Positions 10,911-23,688 of a DNA stretch of 23,688 bases are shown here, one piece after another (the first letter of the stretch is position 1; each line of letters starts with the position of its first letter). This DNA comes from a virus. Under the pieces are notes generated by a model that was not told where the DNA came from, did not search any database, and saw nothing but the letters and a program-made list of their open reading frames with translations. The translations under genes were made by a program, and so were the position numbers. The stretch lies in the IMG/VR virus record IMGVR_UViG_3300006916_000389, positions 1-23,688 of that record; one strand, 5' to 3'.

Positions 10911-11265
10911 TACAACCGAAATCAAAAGAGCAGAGAAAGAGAAGGAGTACCCACCAATTACTCCTCAAGTGCAGGAAGCATTTGACAACATCGAAATGAT
11001 GGGCGAGATGGAGATCGTTCGGCTTTGCGGTGTAGGTGTCCAAGATCTAGGGATCATTGACCCTATTGATGGTTGGGCCTGGGGAGTCAAAGACCTCTAC
11101 AAAAGACTCAAGCGTTCGTTGTTTGACAATGAGGGCAAGGTACAGAAGCGTTACATTGCTCCCGCTTTAGCAATGGAGAAGAACACCTCTACGCACGAAG
11201 TACCTACAATGATGACATCCATCTGTATGATGGCCGGCGTCATTGCTTTCATGGAACAACAATGA
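10843..11265 (+). CDS. Hypothetical protein, 140 aa, hydrophobic C-terminus
   Basis: Not recognised. ATG 10843 follows GAGGCAGGG and lies 68 bases inside the previous gene, an unusually long overlap, while the last bases overlap the TerL start as ATGA. The first ~35 residues are Lys/Thr-rich and disordered (KTTKKIRRTKSTNPSIPSTT). The middle is a small alpha/beta domain with IDPIDGWAWGVKDLYKRLKR. The end, TMMTSICMMAGVIAFMEQQ, is hydrophobic enough for one marginal membrane helix or a buried one. A role beside the terminase is inferred only from position. Confidence 0.7.
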   Translation: MSNQPKTTKKIRRTKSTNPSIPSTTEIKRAEKEKEYPPITPQVQEAFDNIEMMGEMEIVRLCGVGVQDLGIIDPIDGWAWGVKDLYKRLKRSLFDNEGKVQKRYIAPALAMEKNTSTHEVPTMMTSICMMAGVIAFMEQQ

Positions 11266-13190
11266 AAGTAAAGTGGATCGAAAAAGCGAACAACCCGTTC
11301 TACCCTCTACCCTCTGACTACAACGAATTGGATAGTGACGGACAGAGACAGGCACGTGTAAATGCGTGCCGTCTTTGGTTGTGCCCTGGTCGTTCTTCAG
11401 ATGAGATATCTGAATCTTTTGCTTCTTCCGTTAAATTCTTTGATATGTTCTACCTTTGCCCTGATCATGAGGTGGACTTTGATCCGTTGTTCTATGACGA
11501 CACGCCATTAACAACACCTTCATTCCACTTTGACATACTGAGATCTTGGGCATCAAACAACAGAAACATAACAATCGCCCCACGTGGGTCAGCAAAATCG
11601 TTCCTTGTCCGCAAATCCTGCCTTCTGAGAATGCTAGCTCGTCCGATGTACACGATCTTGTACGCGACATCGACCAACGACAATGCAAAGGGGACAGGCC
11701 AAGCAATGAAGGATCAGTTCCTTCACAATCAAAGGATCTTGGACGATTGGTCACCAGAGTTCCCGGACGGTCGAATCTGCCCCCGGCGAGGTGAGGCTCC
11801 GTTCGGAACCGAGATGATGCAGCTGAAGAATGGTTCTTGGCTTAGATCCATCTCTGCCGAGAGCCGTCAGCGTGGTGGTCGACCGAGACGTTATGTTCTC
11901 GATGACCCCGAGTATGACCCCAAAGCATCTACGTCAATGTCGATCATCCGTCAGTACATGGATGACCTGCTATTCAAGATCGTGCTTCCCATGGTTATGC
12001 GGAAGGGTTGCGGTGTTGACTGGCTAGCTACGTTCGTTTCGCGACGACACTACGCCTGGCACGCCTTGCAGACAGAACAGAACGCTAGTGGGGAAAGGGT
12101 CGCTCAAGACCCGAGGTTTAACCTTTGGTCCAGGATGATTGTCAGAGCAGCCTATGAGGAAGAGGACGGAAGTCTTCAGAGCTGCTGGCCCGATATGTGG
12201 CCCGCTACAAAGACAGAGAAGACAGATGATCGAGTATCTCTTGAAGAGATCAAAAGCATTATCGGTACTGCTAACTTCCTGGCTGAGTATATGGCTCGAC
12301 CTGGTGAGTCAGGCGAGTCGTTCTTTGAGGCACTCAACAAGGACAAGCACGGGTGGTGGATCACCCAAGCCGACGAGTACCTTGAAACTCACCCAAGACA
12401 GTCCAATGCCTACATCAATTGGTACAAGGATGGGGAAGAAGCCAGACTTCCCATGTCAGACTTTCTGCGGGAAGCCAGACTGTTCATGTCCGTGGACACG
12501 TCCTACACCTCCACATCTGACTCCGATTACAAAGTAGCCTGCCTGATGGCAGTTAACTCAGACAACGATCTGTTTATCTTGGATCTCTGGAGTGGTCAGT
12601 GCCAAGAGGGACGACTCATCCAAGAGATCTTCAAGATGGCTGATGTCTGGAAGTGCCCAACTATCCACCCCGAGACAATCAAGCAGGGGATTGGGCTGTT
12701 CCACAACATTGAATCGATCATCAAGACAAGAGCTCTGGACATGGCCGGCGTATCTCACATGCCTGCAGTCAAGAAGCTGAATCCTGGAATGATCGACAAG
12801 TCCTCAAAGATTGCAGCGTTGAATCTGAGGTTTGAGCACGGCAAGATCAAGATGCCTCTTTGGCTTAGGAACAAAGCACAGTGGGCGAGACTGTTTGATC
12901 AGATAGAACAGTTTAATCCTGACGCCAAGGATGGCGGATTGCAGCACGATGATGAACTTGATTGCGTTGCGATGAGCCAATTTATTTTGAGGGGGCGCGT
13001 CCGGGCTCACCAAAGGGACCCGGACGCCGTTCACAATCCTATTGAGGAATTGAAATCAGGCAGAGTCTTCGATGCTCAAGGGAACCCTATTGGGTTTGGA
13101 GTGGACTGGAGAAATGTATCTGCTTCTGACATACTAGAAATACTGGACAATCATGTGGAAGGAACAGATGATGGAAGAACAAAGATCTGA
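11262..13190 (+). CDS. terL: Terminase large subunit (packaging ATPase/nuclease)
   Basis: The motor that pumps DNA into the prohead and cuts it. In the 642-aa product, the Walker A-like loop is APRGSAKS at about 106-113, an RG-SAKS form common in phage terminases. Walker B is YVLDDPE at 211-217, preceded by the basic RQRGGRPRR. The C-terminal RNase H-like nuclease begins with FMSVDTSYT, where Asp412 is a likely metal ligand, and closes with HDDELDCVAM around 562-571, supplying further acidic ligands. Length is at the upper end for podovirus-type TerL. The start overlaps the preceding stop as ATGA. Both domains are complete, with no frameshift. Confidence 0.93.
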   Translation: MKVKWIEKANNPFYPLPSDYNELDSDGQRQARVNACRLWLCPGRSSDEISESFASSVKFFDMFYLCPDHEVDFDPLFYDDTPLTTPSFHFDILRSWASNNRNITIAPRGSAKSFLVRKSCLLRMLARPMYTILYATSTNDNAKGTGQAMKDQFLHNQRILDDWSPEFPDGRICPRRGEAPFGTEMMQLKNGSWLRSISAESRQRGGRPRRYVLDDPEYDPKASTSMSIIRQYMDDLLFKIVLPMVMRKGCGVDWLATFVSRRHYAWHALQTEQNASGERVAQDPRFNLWSRMIVRAAYEEEDGSLQSCWPDMWPATKTEKTDDRVSLEEIKSIIGTANFLAEYMARPGESGESFFEALNKDKHGWWITQADEYLETHPRQSNAYINWYKDGEEARLPMSDFLREARLFMSVDTSYTSTSDSDYKVACLMAVNSDNDLFILDLWSGQCQEGRLIQEIFKMADVWKCPTIHPETIKQGIGLFHNIESIIKTRALDMAGVSHMPAVKKLNPGMIDKSSKIAALNLRFEHGKIKMPLWLRNKAQWARLFDQIEQFNPDAKDGGLQHDDELDCVAMSQFILRGRVRAHQRDPDAVHNPIEELKSGRVFDAQGNPIGFGVDWRNVSASDILEILDNHVEGTDDGRTKI

Positions 13191-13458
13191 ACGACCAGAC
13201 TCTCAGAACTCAGTAGTGGTTCCTCTGGCGTTCTTTGATAAACTGCTTAAGTGTTACTATGGCAGTGGTCCTAGAGAATCAGAGAAATACGCCCAGCGGG
13301 CACCCGAGAGCCCTGCAGTCGAAACCCCCAGTGCCGAGAGCCTTAGAGATTTACAAATCCAAACAAGTCTTCCCTCTGGGTATGTACCCAAAGGGGTGGC
13401 TCTCAGAAAAATAGAGGCCAGAAATGCCGATAGATCAGATCAAACTAACGAAGAATAA
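13168..13458 (+). CDS. Small protein between terL and portal, 96 aa
   Basis: Not recognised. ATG 13168 has GGAAGG at ideal distance; an ATG five codons earlier is less well placed. The gene overlaps terL by 23 bases and the portal gene by 35 bases, each in a different frame. A hydrophobic N-terminal motif VVVPLAFFDKLLKCYYG is followed by a Pro/Ser/Glu-rich, probably disordered, region. Short genes in this position are common in podovirus genomes, but their function is generally unknown. Sandwiched overlap limits confidence that it is expressed. Confidence 0.6.
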   Translation: MMEEQRSERPDSQNSVVVPLAFFDKLLKCYYGSGPRESEKYAQRAPESPAVETPSAESLRDLQIQTSLPSGYVPKGVALRKIEARNADRSDQTNEE

Positions 13459-18308: not shown

Positions 18309-18544
18309 TGGCTGGACTGCAAGACTGGTTCCAAAAGAACAGCGGAACAGGCTGGGTCGATTGCAAGACCGGTAAACCCTGTGGTCGCAAGTCCGCAAAA
18401 AAGGGTAAGTCAAAACGACCGTACCCTGCTTGCAGGCCAACCAAGTCTCAGTGCACATCAGCTAAAAATAAGAAGAGCGGGCCAGCGAGGGTTAACTGGA
18501 AAAAGAAAAAGAAGAAGGTAACCCGGAAGAAAAGGAAGAAGTAA
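18308..18544 (+). CDS. Tiny basic protein 2 of three (78 aa)
   Basis: ATG 18308 overlaps the preceding TAA by one base. The N-terminus LQDWFQKNSGTGWVDCKTGK is followed by PCGRKSAKKG, then KRPYPACRPTKSQC and a Lys/Arg tail. The W-V-D-C...P-C-G-R...Y-P-A-C-R-P-T...C arrangement gives four regularly spaced Cys, suggesting a small zinc-binding or disulfide knot between basic flanks. I associate this with a Pfam family of unknown function found in viruses (DUF5872 or a relative, from memory). Co-transcription and translational coupling with its two neighbours suggest a joint role, probably DNA binding in the virion or infected cell. Confidence 0.85.
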   Translation: MAGLQDWFQKNSGTGWVDCKTGKPCGRKSAKKGKSKRPYPACRPTKSQCTSAKNKKSGPARVNWKKKKKKVTRKKRKK

Positions 18545-19403: not shown

Positions 19404-20297
19404 ATGCACTCTACTGGATCATTTCTACTGACGGTTATCGAGAGGGTTCGTGCTTACTTGGACGAAGCTATTGTCGATGCCAAGTTTACAAACGACTATT
19501 TGGTACGCCACGTTATTTGTCCCGAGATGGTCAATGTTCTTTCCCGTCTCTCCAACAACGCTGACAACTGCATTCGTGTACGACACGAGATCGCACTTGT
19601 CGATGGGCAGGAGGACTACATACTTCCTCCCAACATCGGAGAGGTCTATAGGTTTGCGGTCCTGGATGCAGAGAAGAGGATCACAAAAGAGTTTGTACCT
19701 CGTAACGAGTTCTCTCCCCGAGGACCAGGGTGGCAGATTCAAGGCAACATGCTTTCATTCCGACCGCTGCCTGCTACGGGTGAGTCGGTAGACCTGCACT
19801 ACATTCCCAACGGAGACTTCCATCCCCACTATGATGCGGACGGTGGAAACCTTTCTACGTCAACAACATTCGTGTTCGACAATGCGCCTACTCTAGGTGA
19901 TATTGATCGTCGTGAGAATGCTTACGCTGGTGCGATCCTCAGAGTCTGGGACTCTAGCACCAATGTAATTGAAGAGAGAGTTATTAGTTCTTATGTTGCG
20001 GACACTCGTACTGCTACGGTTCGAAGACCCTTTACACATTCCACGGGTGGAACTAAGAAGTACGAAGTAGCCCCTGTCGGCATGAACTCGCTTATGCAGG
20101 CAATTGCCTGTGGTGCTGCCATCAACCTGGGTACCTCCAGGAACATTACACAGAAACAGATGCAGTTCATCTTGCTTCAATACAAGATGGCAATGAAGAC
20201 TGTCGGGGATAACCTGAGCTTCATGCAGGCCCGAAAGCCCAAGTCCTATGAGAAGGACACGGTTGATAACAGAAGCATGTACCTCTTTGGTGACTGA
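19404..20297 (+). CDS. Tail tube A-like head-tail adaptor
   Basis: A 297-aa protein. It begins with a helical bundle (VIERVRAYLDEAIVDAKFTN then VICPEMVNVLSRL) and continues into a beta domain opening with IALVDGQEDYILPPNIGEVY. This is the pattern of podovirus gatekeeper proteins such as T7 gp11 and P22 gp4-type adaptors, where 'i-x-l-v-x-G-x-x-x-Y-x-L-P' marks the first strands. A long beta insertion follows and it ends with a basic helical tail. It would bind under the portal and join it to the tail nozzle. It is longer than T7 gp11. Its stop overlaps the next start as TGATG. Confidence 0.65.
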   Translation: MHSTGSFLLTVIERVRAYLDEAIVDAKFTNDYLVRHVICPEMVNVLSRLSNNADNCIRVRHEIALVDGQEDYILPPNIGEVYRFAVLDAEKRITKEFVPRNEFSPRGPGWQIQGNMLSFRPLPATGESVDLHYIPNGDFHPHYDADGGNLSTSTTFVFDNAPTLGDIDRRENAYAGAILRVWDSSTNVIEERVISSYVADTRTATVRRPFTHSTGGTKKYEVAPVGMNSLMQAIACGAAINLGTSRNITQKQMQFILLQYKMAMKTVGDNLSFMQARKPKSYEKDTVDNRSMYLFGD

Positions 20298-21607
20298 TGC
20301 CTCAGTACTACGGAAAGCCCCCGTCAATTGATCTACTCTCTCAAGCGAGTGAGGTCAGAGCTGCATTCGATACGAACAAGCTGGGTGAAACACCCGCTGA
20401 CGTAGAGAGTTTTGCATGGGGATTCCTTCAGTCTAACTTTGAACCTGCAATGGACGAGCTCGTTCTTGCCGGCTTGCCGGGTTACAACAGCTTTGCTAAA
20501 AACCCGAACATAGGCAGGAGCGGTCACCCGCAAGCGGTAGACGGTTCAACAGGAACGCAAGGGCCTCCGGGTCCATCGGGTTCCGACATGAGCTGCCAAG
20601 ATGTATGCAACTGCAACTGCAGCGACCCAGGTCCTCCGGATAACAAGGGTGCTTGTTGTCTGCCTTCCGGGCACAGTGCGGGAGATTGCATATACACAAC
20701 CCCTGCTAACTGCGCTACTCAAGGTGGAACCTACATGGGACACGGGGTGTCTTGCGGATCTGCACAGTGCGGTGGGGTAGAGCCCTCCGATGAATGGACC
20801 AGCGGTAACGATGAGAGCAGTGAGTGCAACTCCCCCGGATGTCCGACTGACTCCAAGACAACAGACGAGTCAACGACCAATACCTCTTCTTCTTCTCACG
20901 AGTGGTCACCCTCAACCTCTGGGTTTGGCGATCCCGGTATAGGTAGTGGTTACCCCAACGTAGAGTTCTCCGAAGATAGGCCAGGACCTAAACCTCCAGG
21001 CCCCGGTGGAAACGTAGGCGTATGGTTCTCTGAGAGTGCAGCTGAAGATGGGGGATGTATCTCCGAGACTAGTGGGGGATACATTGAGATACCTCCGTAT
21101 GAGCAGCCACATACGCACCACTTCTTTCAAGACAATAAAGAGATGTGCTGTGGTGATCCTTGCAAGGAAAGATGCACAGACCCCAATTGCTGGACTAGGC
21201 TGCCGAACTGCATCCCTGTCCCATCTAGGACAATTGTTGTTTGTCCCTGCGGTCCTAACGTGGAGTACAACGGAAGCGACCCAGACCAAACGCCTTGGCA
21301 ACAAGAGAGTGTTCCGGGAGGAACGAAGTGGAAATTCAATGTTCCCTCTAACTGCTGCTGCGGTCAAAACGAAATACCTGACACAGATGACGATGGCGTC
21401 TACTCCGGAAGCCCTGCCGAGATAACACCCGGTGCGGGAGGAGAAGTTTGTATACGAGTCATTTGGGAAATGTACTGCAGTGGCGGGGATAACACACCTC
21501 CTAAGCCTGGGGTATGTTCCATCTGTCAAGATTGTGATGAGTGGTGGTCTGAAGTTCACTACTCAATCCCCACTGAGCATTGCAAGGATTGCTGTAAAGA
21601 CTTTTAA
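20297..21607 (+). CDS. Cys-rich virion protein with collagen-like patch (436 aa)
   Basis: A remarkable protein of unknown function. Residues 1-70 are helical and Cys-free. GTQGPPGPSG at 86-95 is a short collagen-like Gly-x-y run, and from residue 100 onward there are 32 cysteines by my count, many as CC, CNC, CPC or CCC. Residues 118-158 follow the plan GACCLPSG...DC...NC...GG-T-Y-x-G-x-G-x-x-C...C, a repeat type I associate with planctomycete secreted proteins and marine viral tail genes. Other segments are Ser/Thr/Pro- and Gly-rich, with an acidic DTDDDG. It is probably an exposed virion or tail protein stabilised by disulfides or metal. ATG 20297 overlaps the upstream stop. Confidence 0.85.
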   Translation: MPQYYGKPPSIDLLSQASEVRAAFDTNKLGETPADVESFAWGFLQSNFEPAMDELVLAGLPGYNSFAKNPNIGRSGHPQAVDGSTGTQGPPGPSGSDMSCQDVCNCNCSDPGPPDNKGACCLPSGHSAGDCIYTTPANCATQGGTYMGHGVSCGSAQCGGVEPSDEWTSGNDESSECNSPGCPTDSKTTDESTTNTSSSSHEWSPSTSGFGDPGIGSGYPNVEFSEDRPGPKPPGPGGNVGVWFSESAAEDGGCISETSGGYIEIPPYEQPHTHHFFQDNKEMCCGDPCKERCTDPNCWTRLPNCIPVPSRTIVVCPCGPNVEYNGSDPDQTPWQQESVPGGTKWKFNVPSNCCCGQNEIPDTDDDGVYSGSPAEITPGAGGEVCIRVIWEMYCSGGDNTPPKPGVCSICQDCDEWWSEVHYSIPTEHCKDCCKDF

Positions 21608-21619
21608 GTTGAGCTATGT

Positions 21620-22570
21620 ATGAGACGGGGTAAGGAAGCTCAAAACTTTAACCTTGACCCTGGTGCTTACCTAGGGACAGCTCCTACACACAGTAAGTCA
21701 AAACCCTTCACTACCCGCAGGGATCTGGGGGAGATGATGTTTTCAACCTCTACTTCCAGCAGGTTGTCTTTGACCAACCTGTTCCTGAACCAACCCATCT
21801 TCCTGATCCTTAGTGGGCCTTCGCTCAATCTGTTGGATCTGGGCAGGATCAACGAGGTAGGGGCCATGAGCTTCGGAGTCAACAACAGCTGGTCTGTATT
21901 CAAGCCTTCATTCTGGACCTGTGCTGACCACCCAAACAGGTTTCTGTACTCGCGGTGGAAAGACCCTAATGTCGTAAAGTTCTGCCCTCTCCCCCTCAAG
22001 AACTCAAAGCTAAGAAGGAAAGAAGGGGAGAAACTAGCGACAGTACAGGACTCTCCTTCTTCTTGTCCCAACGTATTCTTCTACCCCCGTAATCTTCGAT
22101 TCGACCCTAGATCGTTTCTTCAGCAGAACAGCGTCAACTGGGGATCTGAGAGCAAGGAGAGAGATGCTCTCGGGTATACCGGAGCTAGGTCAGTCATGTT
22201 CTCCGCTCTTAGGATCTGTCATCTACTAGGCTTCCGCAGGATCTACCTATGCGGGGCAGACTTTAAGATGGAAGCAGGTCAACAGAACTACGCTTTCCCC
22301 CAGTCACGGGATGCCGGAGCAATAAAAGGAAACAACTCTTCCTACAAAACGAATTCAAAAAGGCTAAAATCCTTGAACGAGGTACTCATCCAATCGGGTA
22401 CTAAGGTTTGGAACTGCAGCCCTACCAGCCAACTAGACGCTTTCCCCTACTTACCTTTCGGTCAGGCAATAGAAAATTGCAAGGACTTGATTCCGGAGCA
22501 AGAAAGCAGCTTGGGATGGTACGATAAGAAAAAAGAAACCAAGACCAAACTAGCGGTCAAGAGGAAATAA
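21620..22570 (+). CDS. DUF115-like putative glycosyltransferase
   Basis: A 316-aa protein with the hallmarks of the DUF115/sialyltransferase-like superfamily. The N-terminal half has IFLILSGPSLNLLDLGRI (60-77), equivalent to 'l-i-G-x-G-P-S-L', then MSFGVNNSW and FWTCADHPNRF, matching the 'g-v-N-x-a ... p-x-Y-x-v-x-x-D' stretch. The second half carries GYTGARSVMFSALRICHLLG (185-204), then FRRIYLCGADFKM with the acidic GADF at 212-215. Members of this superfamily are nucleotide-sugar transferases or MptE-type pyrophosphokinases; in phages the role may be glycosylation of virion or host surface. The ribosome site is weak. It sits between the Cys-rich gene and the tail protein gene. Confidence 0.8.
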   Translation: MRRGKEAQNFNLDPGAYLGTAPTHSKSKPFTTRRDLGEMMFSTSTSSRLSLTNLFLNQPIFLILSGPSLNLLDLGRINEVGAMSFGVNNSWSVFKPSFWTCADHPNRFLYSRWKDPNVVKFCPLPLKNSKLRRKEGEKLATVQDSPSSCPNVFFYPRNLRFDPRSFLQQNSVNWGSESKERDALGYTGARSVMFSALRICHLLGFRRIYLCGADFKMEAGQQNYAFPQSRDAGAIKGNNSSYKTNSKRLKSLNEVLIQSGTKVWNCSPTSQLDAFPYLPFGQAIENCKDLIPEQESSLGWYDKKKETKTKLAVKRK

Positions 22571-22571
22571 A

Positions 22572-23688
22572 ATGGCTAATGAACTGAGTACCAAGTGGAC
22601 TTACCCCCTCACCATGGTGAGTCAGGACAAGAGGGTCCCTCTTCCTGGCGTCATGGACGGATACGCTGGAGAGCTGGCTGGGGTAGATGGATCGGTTCAG
22701 GGTGGTCTACGACCCTTTGGCGGATTCAGGACAGTCTATGAACTCAACTTCTTTTCCCACCCAAACCACAACCACAACTCATTCGTCACCGATTTCTTCC
22801 CCGTCAACTTCAAGATCGACTTCGACTCGTACGGGTATGGGTTTGTTTACAGAGCACAACGACAGACCTCAGCTGCAGCCGGCGTAGTTGAATTCGCATC
22901 GACCGCTAACGATGGCGATACTCTCCAGATTACTTCGACCGATCTTACTGACCGTACTTACCGGGCATTCAGCGGCAGCACCCACGGTTACTCCAACGGA
23001 GATACGGGTAAAGCCGAGACTCGATTCGAGTTTCTGAAGGAAGCAGTCGTAGGCGGGACCATCAGCTTCACATCCGAAGATGGCTTCACTCGTTCCTACA
23101 AGGGTGTCCAAGATGGAAGCACGACCAACGGAACGTACGATCCAGTAGATGGGACAGTCCTATTCAACGTAGGAGGTACTGACCGTTCCTACATTACGGA
23201 ATCTGCTTCGGGCCTGACTCTCCAGTCCTCGATTGAAGACAGTGGCAATCACATCACTTCCTACTCGGGGGGCACGGGTACATCTCAAGAGGGCTTACCT
23301 GACTACACGGACACGTCTGGCTACTACCAAAACTGGGAAGGCCGAACTACGAGAGCCATAGCCACACTAGCTATGACTTCTATCAGTAGTCTGACAGGCA
23401 AGACTGTAATCTTTGAAGACGACACCAAGGCCCATACGATCACCTTTGACGATACTCGTACTGTTTCATCTACGGGACAGGGAGCTGTCTCCACTATCAC
23501 CCAGGTAGAGAAGACCGCCGGAACTCTCAACGGGAAGACGATTATCCTGCAGGATGCAGGGGGCACGAATCACACCGTCACTTTTGATAACACGATCAAC
23601 CAGAAAGCGTCGGGTGCTGCAGCAACCATTACTGTAGCAAACGTAACTTCTCTGAACGGTCTGACTACGATCATCGAAGACTCGAAGA
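22572..23688 (+). CDS. Large tail protein with beta repeats (tail tube B-like), partial
   Basis: ATG 22572 follows GAGGAA, and the frame stays open to the window edge for 372 codons, so the C-terminus is missing. The N-terminus TYPLTMVSQDKRVPLPGVMD and GGLRPFGGF resemble the start of nozzle (tail tubular B-like) proteins of marine podoviruses. From ~residue 113 short beta units recur: DGDTLQI, GGTISFTSEDGF, DGTVLFNVGGTD, LTGKTVIFEDDTKAHTITF, LNGKTIILQDAGGTNHTVTF and LNGLTTIIED, the last three 41-45 residues apart. Position after the adaptor supports the nozzle role. A fiber or decoration function of the repeats is possible. Confidence 0.75.
   Translation, partial: MANELSTKWTYPLTMVSQDKRVPLPGVMDGYAGELAGVDGSVQGGLRPFGGFRTVYELNFFSHPNHNHNSFVTDFFPVNFKIDFDSYGYGFVYRAQRQTSAAAGVVEFASTANDGDTLQITSTDLTDRTYRAFSGSTHGYSNGDTGKAETRFEFLKEAVVGGTISFTSEDGFTRSYKGVQDGSTTNGTYDPVDGTVLFNVGGTDRSYITESASGLTLQSSIEDSGNHITSYSGGTGTSQEGLPDYTDTSGYYQNWEGRTTRAIATLAMTSISSLTGKTVIFEDDTKAHTITFDDTRTVSSTGQGAVSTITQVEKTAGTLNGKTIILQDAGGTNHTVTFDNTINQKASGAAATITVANVTSLNGLTTIIEDSK
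23392..23688 (+). repeat. Tandem beta-repeat units inside the tail protein
   Basis: Three consecutive units in the protein encoded here begin at residues 274 (LTGKTVIFEDD), 319 (LNGKTIILQDA) and 361 (LNGLTTIIEDS). The first two continue with THTITFDDT-like and NHTVTFDNT strands, and the last is cut by the window edge. The DNA copies have diverged, so the repetition is clear at protein level only. Confidence 0.6.

Follow-up and report, generated by a model that had tools for sequence, protein, structure and literature searches.

Phage proteins are usually poor in cysteine. Collagen-bearing fibers are known from phages, and EPclA and EPclB of E. coli O157:H7 prophages combine an N-terminal part, a Gly-X-Y stalk, and a distal domain in a tail gene context (PMC3368898). 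In marine pelagimyophages, which are T4-like, the region beside gp14 forms a host recognition cluster that contains tail fibers and glycosyltransferases (PMC7029224). The protein described here resembles EPclA and EPclB in its general layout, but it has just two Gly-X-Y triplets, lacks a Pfam fiber domain, and is rich in Cys in its distal part.

A second point of comparison comes from animals. The iRhom homology domain (IRHD) of iRhom1 and iRhom2 is not predicted to resemble known domains (PMC6451368), and has been described as structurally unprecedented and stapled by disulfides (PMC11248996). A small unit of the phage protein, named GACC after the residues with which it starts, may be like the IRHD in local fold, as judged from its model, and in the spacing of its six Cys. 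The two differ considerably in size and setting: the IRHD comprises about 230 aa with 16 Cys (eight disulfides) and belongs to a rhomboid pseudoprotease, in which TMD1 and TMD2 flank it, whereas the GACC unit is 41 aa long and free-standing. This undescribed domain and its link to the iRhoms are the most surprising part of the locus, while the phage protein itself appears to be a modular appendage, a known type of part.

A Cys-rich gene in a conserved slot

The DNA analyzed here, referred to as the window, is a stretch of 23,688 nt (IMGVR_UViG_3300006916_000389), a genome fragment of an uncultured marine phage. Its structural genes are encoded on the plus strand, beginning with the terminase large subunit (11262..13190; phrog_38, 1.2e-41). 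Portal-like, scaffold-like, and capsid-like genes, each named from position and size, start at 13424, 15463, and 16397, respectively, and the gene for a DUF6321 protein starts at 18544. These are followed by an SU10-type head-tail adaptor (19404..20297), whose match to Pfam SU10_adaptor (2.8e-5) falls just below the cut-off of that model, the Cys-rich gene (20297..21607), a glycosyltransferase-like gene (21620..22570; phrog_4603 alpha-2,3-sialyltransferase, 6e-6), and the N-terminal part of a very large tail-region protein (22572..23687) that continues beyond the window. The large protein has no family match in Pfam and PHROG searches, and is nozzle-like from its position and an N-terminal motif only. 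The Cys-rich gene thus lies among tail genes, as expected of a tail fiber or spike, with the tail role of its large downstream neighbor taken from position.

The ORF at 20297-21607 (plus strand, ATG start) encodes 436 aa with 32 Cys (7.3%), and a recount agrees with the original prediction. The 24 other window genes that were counted encode 6,579 aa in all, among them 73 Cys (1.1%); at this background rate, the chance of at least 32 Cys in 436 aa is P ~1e-16. Every motif that had been named can be located in the translation, with CC at residues 120-121, 284-285, and 432-433, CPC at residues 316-318, CCC at residues 353-355, and the GACC unit at residues 118-158. The counterpart in L182 (contig 3300030117_004487), a relative at 39-45% identity, has 466 aa and likewise 32 Cys. 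Between the two proteins 29 of 33 Cys columns are kept, compared with 159 of 384 non-Cys columns (41%; Fisher P 1.7e-7), and for 13 of the 29 conserved Cys the codon differs between the two phages. Because the Cys columns are maintained, in part through altered codons, the frame is real and selected. A frameshift, which had been named as an error that would remove the Cys frame, is ruled out by Cys kept through synonymous changes, as are sequencing error and misassembly.

Profile searches against Pfam, PHROGs, and NCBIfam match the protein to no structural family, and searches with the protein by itself find no counterpart among viral contigs or phage records. The window/L182 alignment and the L181 and L183 proteins, used as queries in later scans, lead to no additional family members. 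Furthermore, no signal peptide is seen by eye, and the protein has no membrane-like stretch (top 19-residue mean hydropathy 0.79).

Comparison with L182 divides the protein into modules, all on the plus strand. The N-terminal segment (residues 1-66; 20297..20494), a candidate for docking on the virion, is 65% identical, while the Gly/Pro spacer that follows (residues 67-99; 20495..20593) is variable, with 18% identity. The GACC unit (residues 118-158; 20648..20770) has six Cys, and identity in the GACC stretch is 55%. Next comes a Ser/Thr/Gly-rich linker (residues 159-253; 20771..21055) with a conserved CxSPGC-x2-DSKTT motif and 25% identity over residues 194-250. The C-terminal Cys-rich region (residues 254-436; 21056..21604) contains 20 Cys and is 45% identical, a value measured over residues 251-436. 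From this pattern, the protein seems to be built of a docking segment that is conserved, spacers that are flexible, and modules stapled by Cys. Traces of the C-terminal region occur in L181 and L183, close relatives in which the GACC unit is absent and the Cys-rich C-terminal region is retained. AlphaFold2 predicts this region to be mostly beta, at low confidence (pLDDT 53). A fold assignment was dropped, since this confidence is too weak and structure matches with TM <=0.28 are not meaningful.

The GPPGPSG motif, originally described as collagen-like, is indeed present inside the Gly/Pro spacer (residues 89-95; 20561-20581), but amounts to two Gly-X-Y triplets, and the collagen model PF01391 finds no match in the protein. 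The syntenic L184/L009 protein, on the other hand, does match Pfam Collagen (2.7e-12) over a long collagen-like stretch. In L184, this stretch lies between an N-terminal segment and a Cys-rich region, and the protein holds 59 Cys in total.

Relatives of the phage were reached through the terminase (75 loci) and the adaptor, whose profile matches 31 of 37 related records. Genes were read in the DNA downstream of the adaptor from 29 related records, of which 18 are distinct and have a complete interval. In all 18, a Cys-rich gene lies between the adaptor and the large downstream tail-region gene, which bears out the virion-region location first proposed for the window gene. The slot genes contain 2.2-12.5% Cys (median 3.9%), compared with a median of 0.39% for the other genes in the same stretches that encode 250 aa or more (63 genes); taking the most Cys-rich gene per slot favors this contrast, but the other long genes still never exceed 2.5%. 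Most of these slot proteins have no recognizable sequence likeness to the window protein, so that conservation applies to the slot and to the Cys habit. Across a whole clade of uncultured phages, one position in the tail region is kept for Cys-rich proteins that evolve fast, despite the general Cys-poverty of phage proteins. The slot genes of distant relatives, with as little as 2-4% Cys and no sequence likeness to the window protein, need not have one function.

Among near relatives, the Cys-rich gene diverges most of all genes from the terminase to the window end. Against the L011 contig its product is 39% identical, while the others range from 61 to 93% (terminase 89%, portal 88%, capsid 84%, DUF6321 protein 93%, adaptor 77%). 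Against the L004 contig, whose Cys-rich protein is missing the GACC unit, identity is 25% for the Cys-rich protein and 78% for the adaptor, within a range of 70-78% for terminase, portal, capsid, and adaptor. Divergence at this rate is also compatible with a surface protein that has no role in host binding.

Several variations on the slot and its borders were observed. In one subclade, the Cys-rich gene is directly followed by a small one that encodes about 88 aa with 6-7 Cys (L185 5813-6079, L186 8765-9028, and L188 5978-6250, in the reading direction of the adaptor). The slot genes of L192, L203, and L206 have a second N-terminal type, with variants in L190, L191, and L195, in which a short strand-like start (e.g., MQIFTKNGRVVMYKGRIAISPSCCSC or MSLYIKNGKIVTINGQLAAGGDCC) leads directly into the Cys-rich chain. 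The adaptor is a single open frame of 894 aa in two related contigs (L006 7728-10412 and L184 36-2720), and a profile search finds three tandem adaptor copies in the record behind L184. A tandem-fused adaptor could alter the subunit count of the ring.

The GACC unit and the iRhom homology domain

The GACC unit is a real stand-alone six-Cys domain. It spans about 41 residues, and its six Cys are invariant across 99 diverse units; other hallmarks are the G-A-C-C start, a GG-x-[YFW] motif, and a conserved Gly ahead of the third strand. The window unit matches profile A1 with an E-value of 2e-12, a figure to be read with the fact that it is itself one of the 16 rows of A1. Pfam, PHROG, and NCBIfam hold no model for the unit. 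Even a planctomycete fragment in which the GACC motif recurs 39 times has zero Pfam matches, and in NCBIfam only a weak anchor-domain match elsewhere in the fragment. A literature search returned nothing relevant on a named GACC domain. The unit is a small, probably disulfide-bonded domain that the searched libraries do not model.

Structure prediction, one of the checks first proposed for this protein, models the GACC unit well, in contrast to the C-terminal region. With the 99-unit alignment, AlphaFold2 gives a beta-beta-alpha-beta arrangement (pLDDT 84). A Foldseek search against 350,542 PDB chains places iRhom1/iRhom2 in the top three positions (query TM 0.69-0.71; 2.1-2.2 A over 42-43 columns), with E-values of 1.3-2.5 for the 47-residue query, and the remaining four matches have TM <=0.27. 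The best PDB matches of the sequence profile are also iRhoms (E 0.0018; per-domain E 0.16), with all six Cys aligned; the iRhom segment concerned lies near residues 201-238 of 9xy4 chain A. When the iRhom1 segment is shuffled with its Cys fixed, 2 of 3,000 shuffles reach the real score (27.6 bits; shuffled mean 9.8, sd 4.0), which indicates that the match does not depend on Cys spacing alone. By sequence and predicted fold, the IRHD appears to be the sole convincing match of the GACC unit in the PDB. A structure search of BFVD with the unit gave nothing convincing. The likeness is local, as the window protein has neither the membrane segment nor the rhomboid match that would accompany a full IRHD.

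On these results, the IRHD may have a relative in bacteria, and convergence is also possible as the origin of the likeness. It is conceivable, if somewhat short of probable, that the GACC unit is a widespread and undescribed extracellular domain of bacteria and phages, of which the animal IRHD holds a homologous copy, and that phages trade such units as binding modules of their tails.

Distribution of the GACC unit and the question of host

When each bacterial or archaeal species was represented by one genome, a search for GACCLPDG yielded 324 stretches, of which 274 were confirmed; alignment A3, with unaltered sequences, served for the genome scan. Of the best 79 cellular loci, 69 have titles that name Planctomycetota, for the most part Phycisphaerae, and the motif was thus aptly called planctomycete-like. 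Profile A6 finds the unit in 32 of 150 genomes from the class (Phycisphaerae) to which a marine Phycisphaerales genome belongs; profile A1 finds it in 7 of 149 Planctomycetota genomes (one being the seed), 3 of 146 Myxococcota (one the seed, leaving 2 of 145), and 1 of 148 Bacteroidota (the seed, leaving 0 of 147), and the tallies by A6 and A1 are not strictly comparable. GACC units also lie on contigs labeled otherwise than planctomycete, namely L164 (a Myxococcales MAG), L112, L153, and L155 (Bacteroidota MAGs), L159, and L173; some of these may be mis-binned planctomycete contigs.

The planctomycete proteins share with the phage protein the GACC start, six Cys with the same spacing, and GG-x-[YFW]. 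Many of them look exported and, by eye, many have dockerin-like tails, and they carry up to 39 units, whereas a single unit and no visible signal peptide are present in the phage protein.

Viral copies extend well beyond the clade of the window phage. GACCLPDG is found in 20 viral contigs; at least two of these matches, those in L088 and L094, look fortuitous. Several contigs have T4-like baseplate-wedge (phrog_219, 261, 232) or head-closure (phrog_460) genes beside Cys-rich proteins, and two GACC proteins of T4-like contigs begin with collagen-like GPTGPTG or GPVGPIGPTG. The proteins of the T4-like contigs L079, L083, L086, L089, and L098 are thus like the window protein in their GACC units, in some of their openings, and in their tail or neck neighborhood. 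They differ in length (about 400 to 2,015 aa), in their number of Cys (as many as 233), in usually carrying more than one unit, and in belonging to an unrelated virion architecture. Three are giant Cys-rich proteins: L089 2135-8182 (2,015 aa, 233 Cys), L098 4533-10187 (1,884 aa, 187 Cys), and L079 5008-9270 (1,420 aa, 170 Cys).

The occurrence of the unit in unrelated phages at similar genomic places supports a role in host contact. It also weakens any inference of host from the motif alone: the profile search for taxonomic spread finds cellular copies mainly in Planctomycetota, and the unit in T4-like phages as well. The GACC unit is a module common to planctomycete proteins and phages, not proof of a host. 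The host suggestion attached to the motif in the original prediction is accordingly not established. The pattern named there as fatal to the host hint, homologues in phages of unrelated hosts and none in cells, is not what is seen, because a strong cellular counterpart exists.

A planctomycete host is plausible for the window phage. A more specific proposal, that the phage took its GACC unit from a Phycisphaerae host and pairs it with GACC-repeat surface proteins of that host, is possible but rather doubtful. The strong Phycisphaerae bias of the unit favors it, as does the closest cellular unit, which is 53% identical to that of the window and belongs to a Phycisphaerae MAG. However, the unit is common to unrelated phage types and too short for a reliable tree, and the genomes themselves offer no link. 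No relative of the terminase was found in 392 Planctomycetota genomes by a search run without a positive control, and a planctomycete prophage was set aside on this ground. In 298 Phycisphaerae genomes, the best CRISPR-spacer-like DNA match covers 39 bases at 85% (E 0.0016) and is not significant. The absence of terminase and spacer matches is weak evidence, the phage having no known lysogeny. A literature search found no relevant paper on planctomycete phages in the library covered, and the GACC unit provides an entry point to phages with possible planctomycete hosts.

A putative tail appendage

The window protein is probably a tail-associated host-contact appendage of an uncultured and likely short-tailed phage. 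Its N-terminal segment would dock on the tail, and the spacer, replaced in L184 by a long collagen-like stalk, would keep the Cys-rich part off the particle. The protein would be made in reduced form in the cytoplasm, with disulfides forming once lysis exposes it, and the stapled modules may then attach to a component of the host surface. Phages would swap the variable modules among themselves, as the GACC unit appears to be gained or lost among close relatives. An exposed appendage that oxidizes after lysis had been proposed from the start. The missing signal peptide and membrane segment, the gene position, the collagen-like relatives, and the fastest divergence in the region are all consistent with it, but the product may be absent from the virion.

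The lack of an export signal also fits a virion protein that binds metal, in which CC, CPC, and CCC would hold zinc or another metal and allow folding in the reducing cytoplasm where the protein is synthesized. The C-terminal region does place its CPC and CCC clusters among several His and Asp. However, the six Cys of the GACC unit are not accompanied by an invariant His, the cellular GACC copies are in apparently exported proteins, and disulfides hold together the nearest solved fold, that of the iRhom domain (PMC11248996). Metal binding is an unlikely explanation for the Cys as a whole, but the C-terminal CPC and CCC clusters, whose model is poor, may bind metal.

Multidomain decoration proteins and collagen-like capsid fibers are known in phages. 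The window protein could accordingly sit on the capsid as a fiber or decoration protein that attaches loosely to surfaces or particles, and nothing in its sequence fixes the docking site. We regard this as less likely still, as the gene always adjoins the adaptor ahead of the large tail-region gene, and the GACC genes of T4-like contigs sit with baseplate and neck genes. Least likely is a late protein outside the virion that works at the cell envelope or excludes superinfecting phages: incorporation into the virion is itself inferred and a glycosyltransferase-like gene adjoins, but the protein has neither an export signal nor a membrane segment, has collagen-like relatives, and is encoded inside the structural gene block throughout the clade.

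Two other genes of the window deserve mention. The glycosyltransferase-like gene beside the Cys-rich gene (21620-22570) has a counterpart at the same place in L181-L183, and its product might modify either the appendage or the host surface. On the minus strand, the gene at 301-1080 has no PHROG match and is uracil-DNA glycosylase-like by eye (FVGQNPGYHEDLNNRPFVGKSG).
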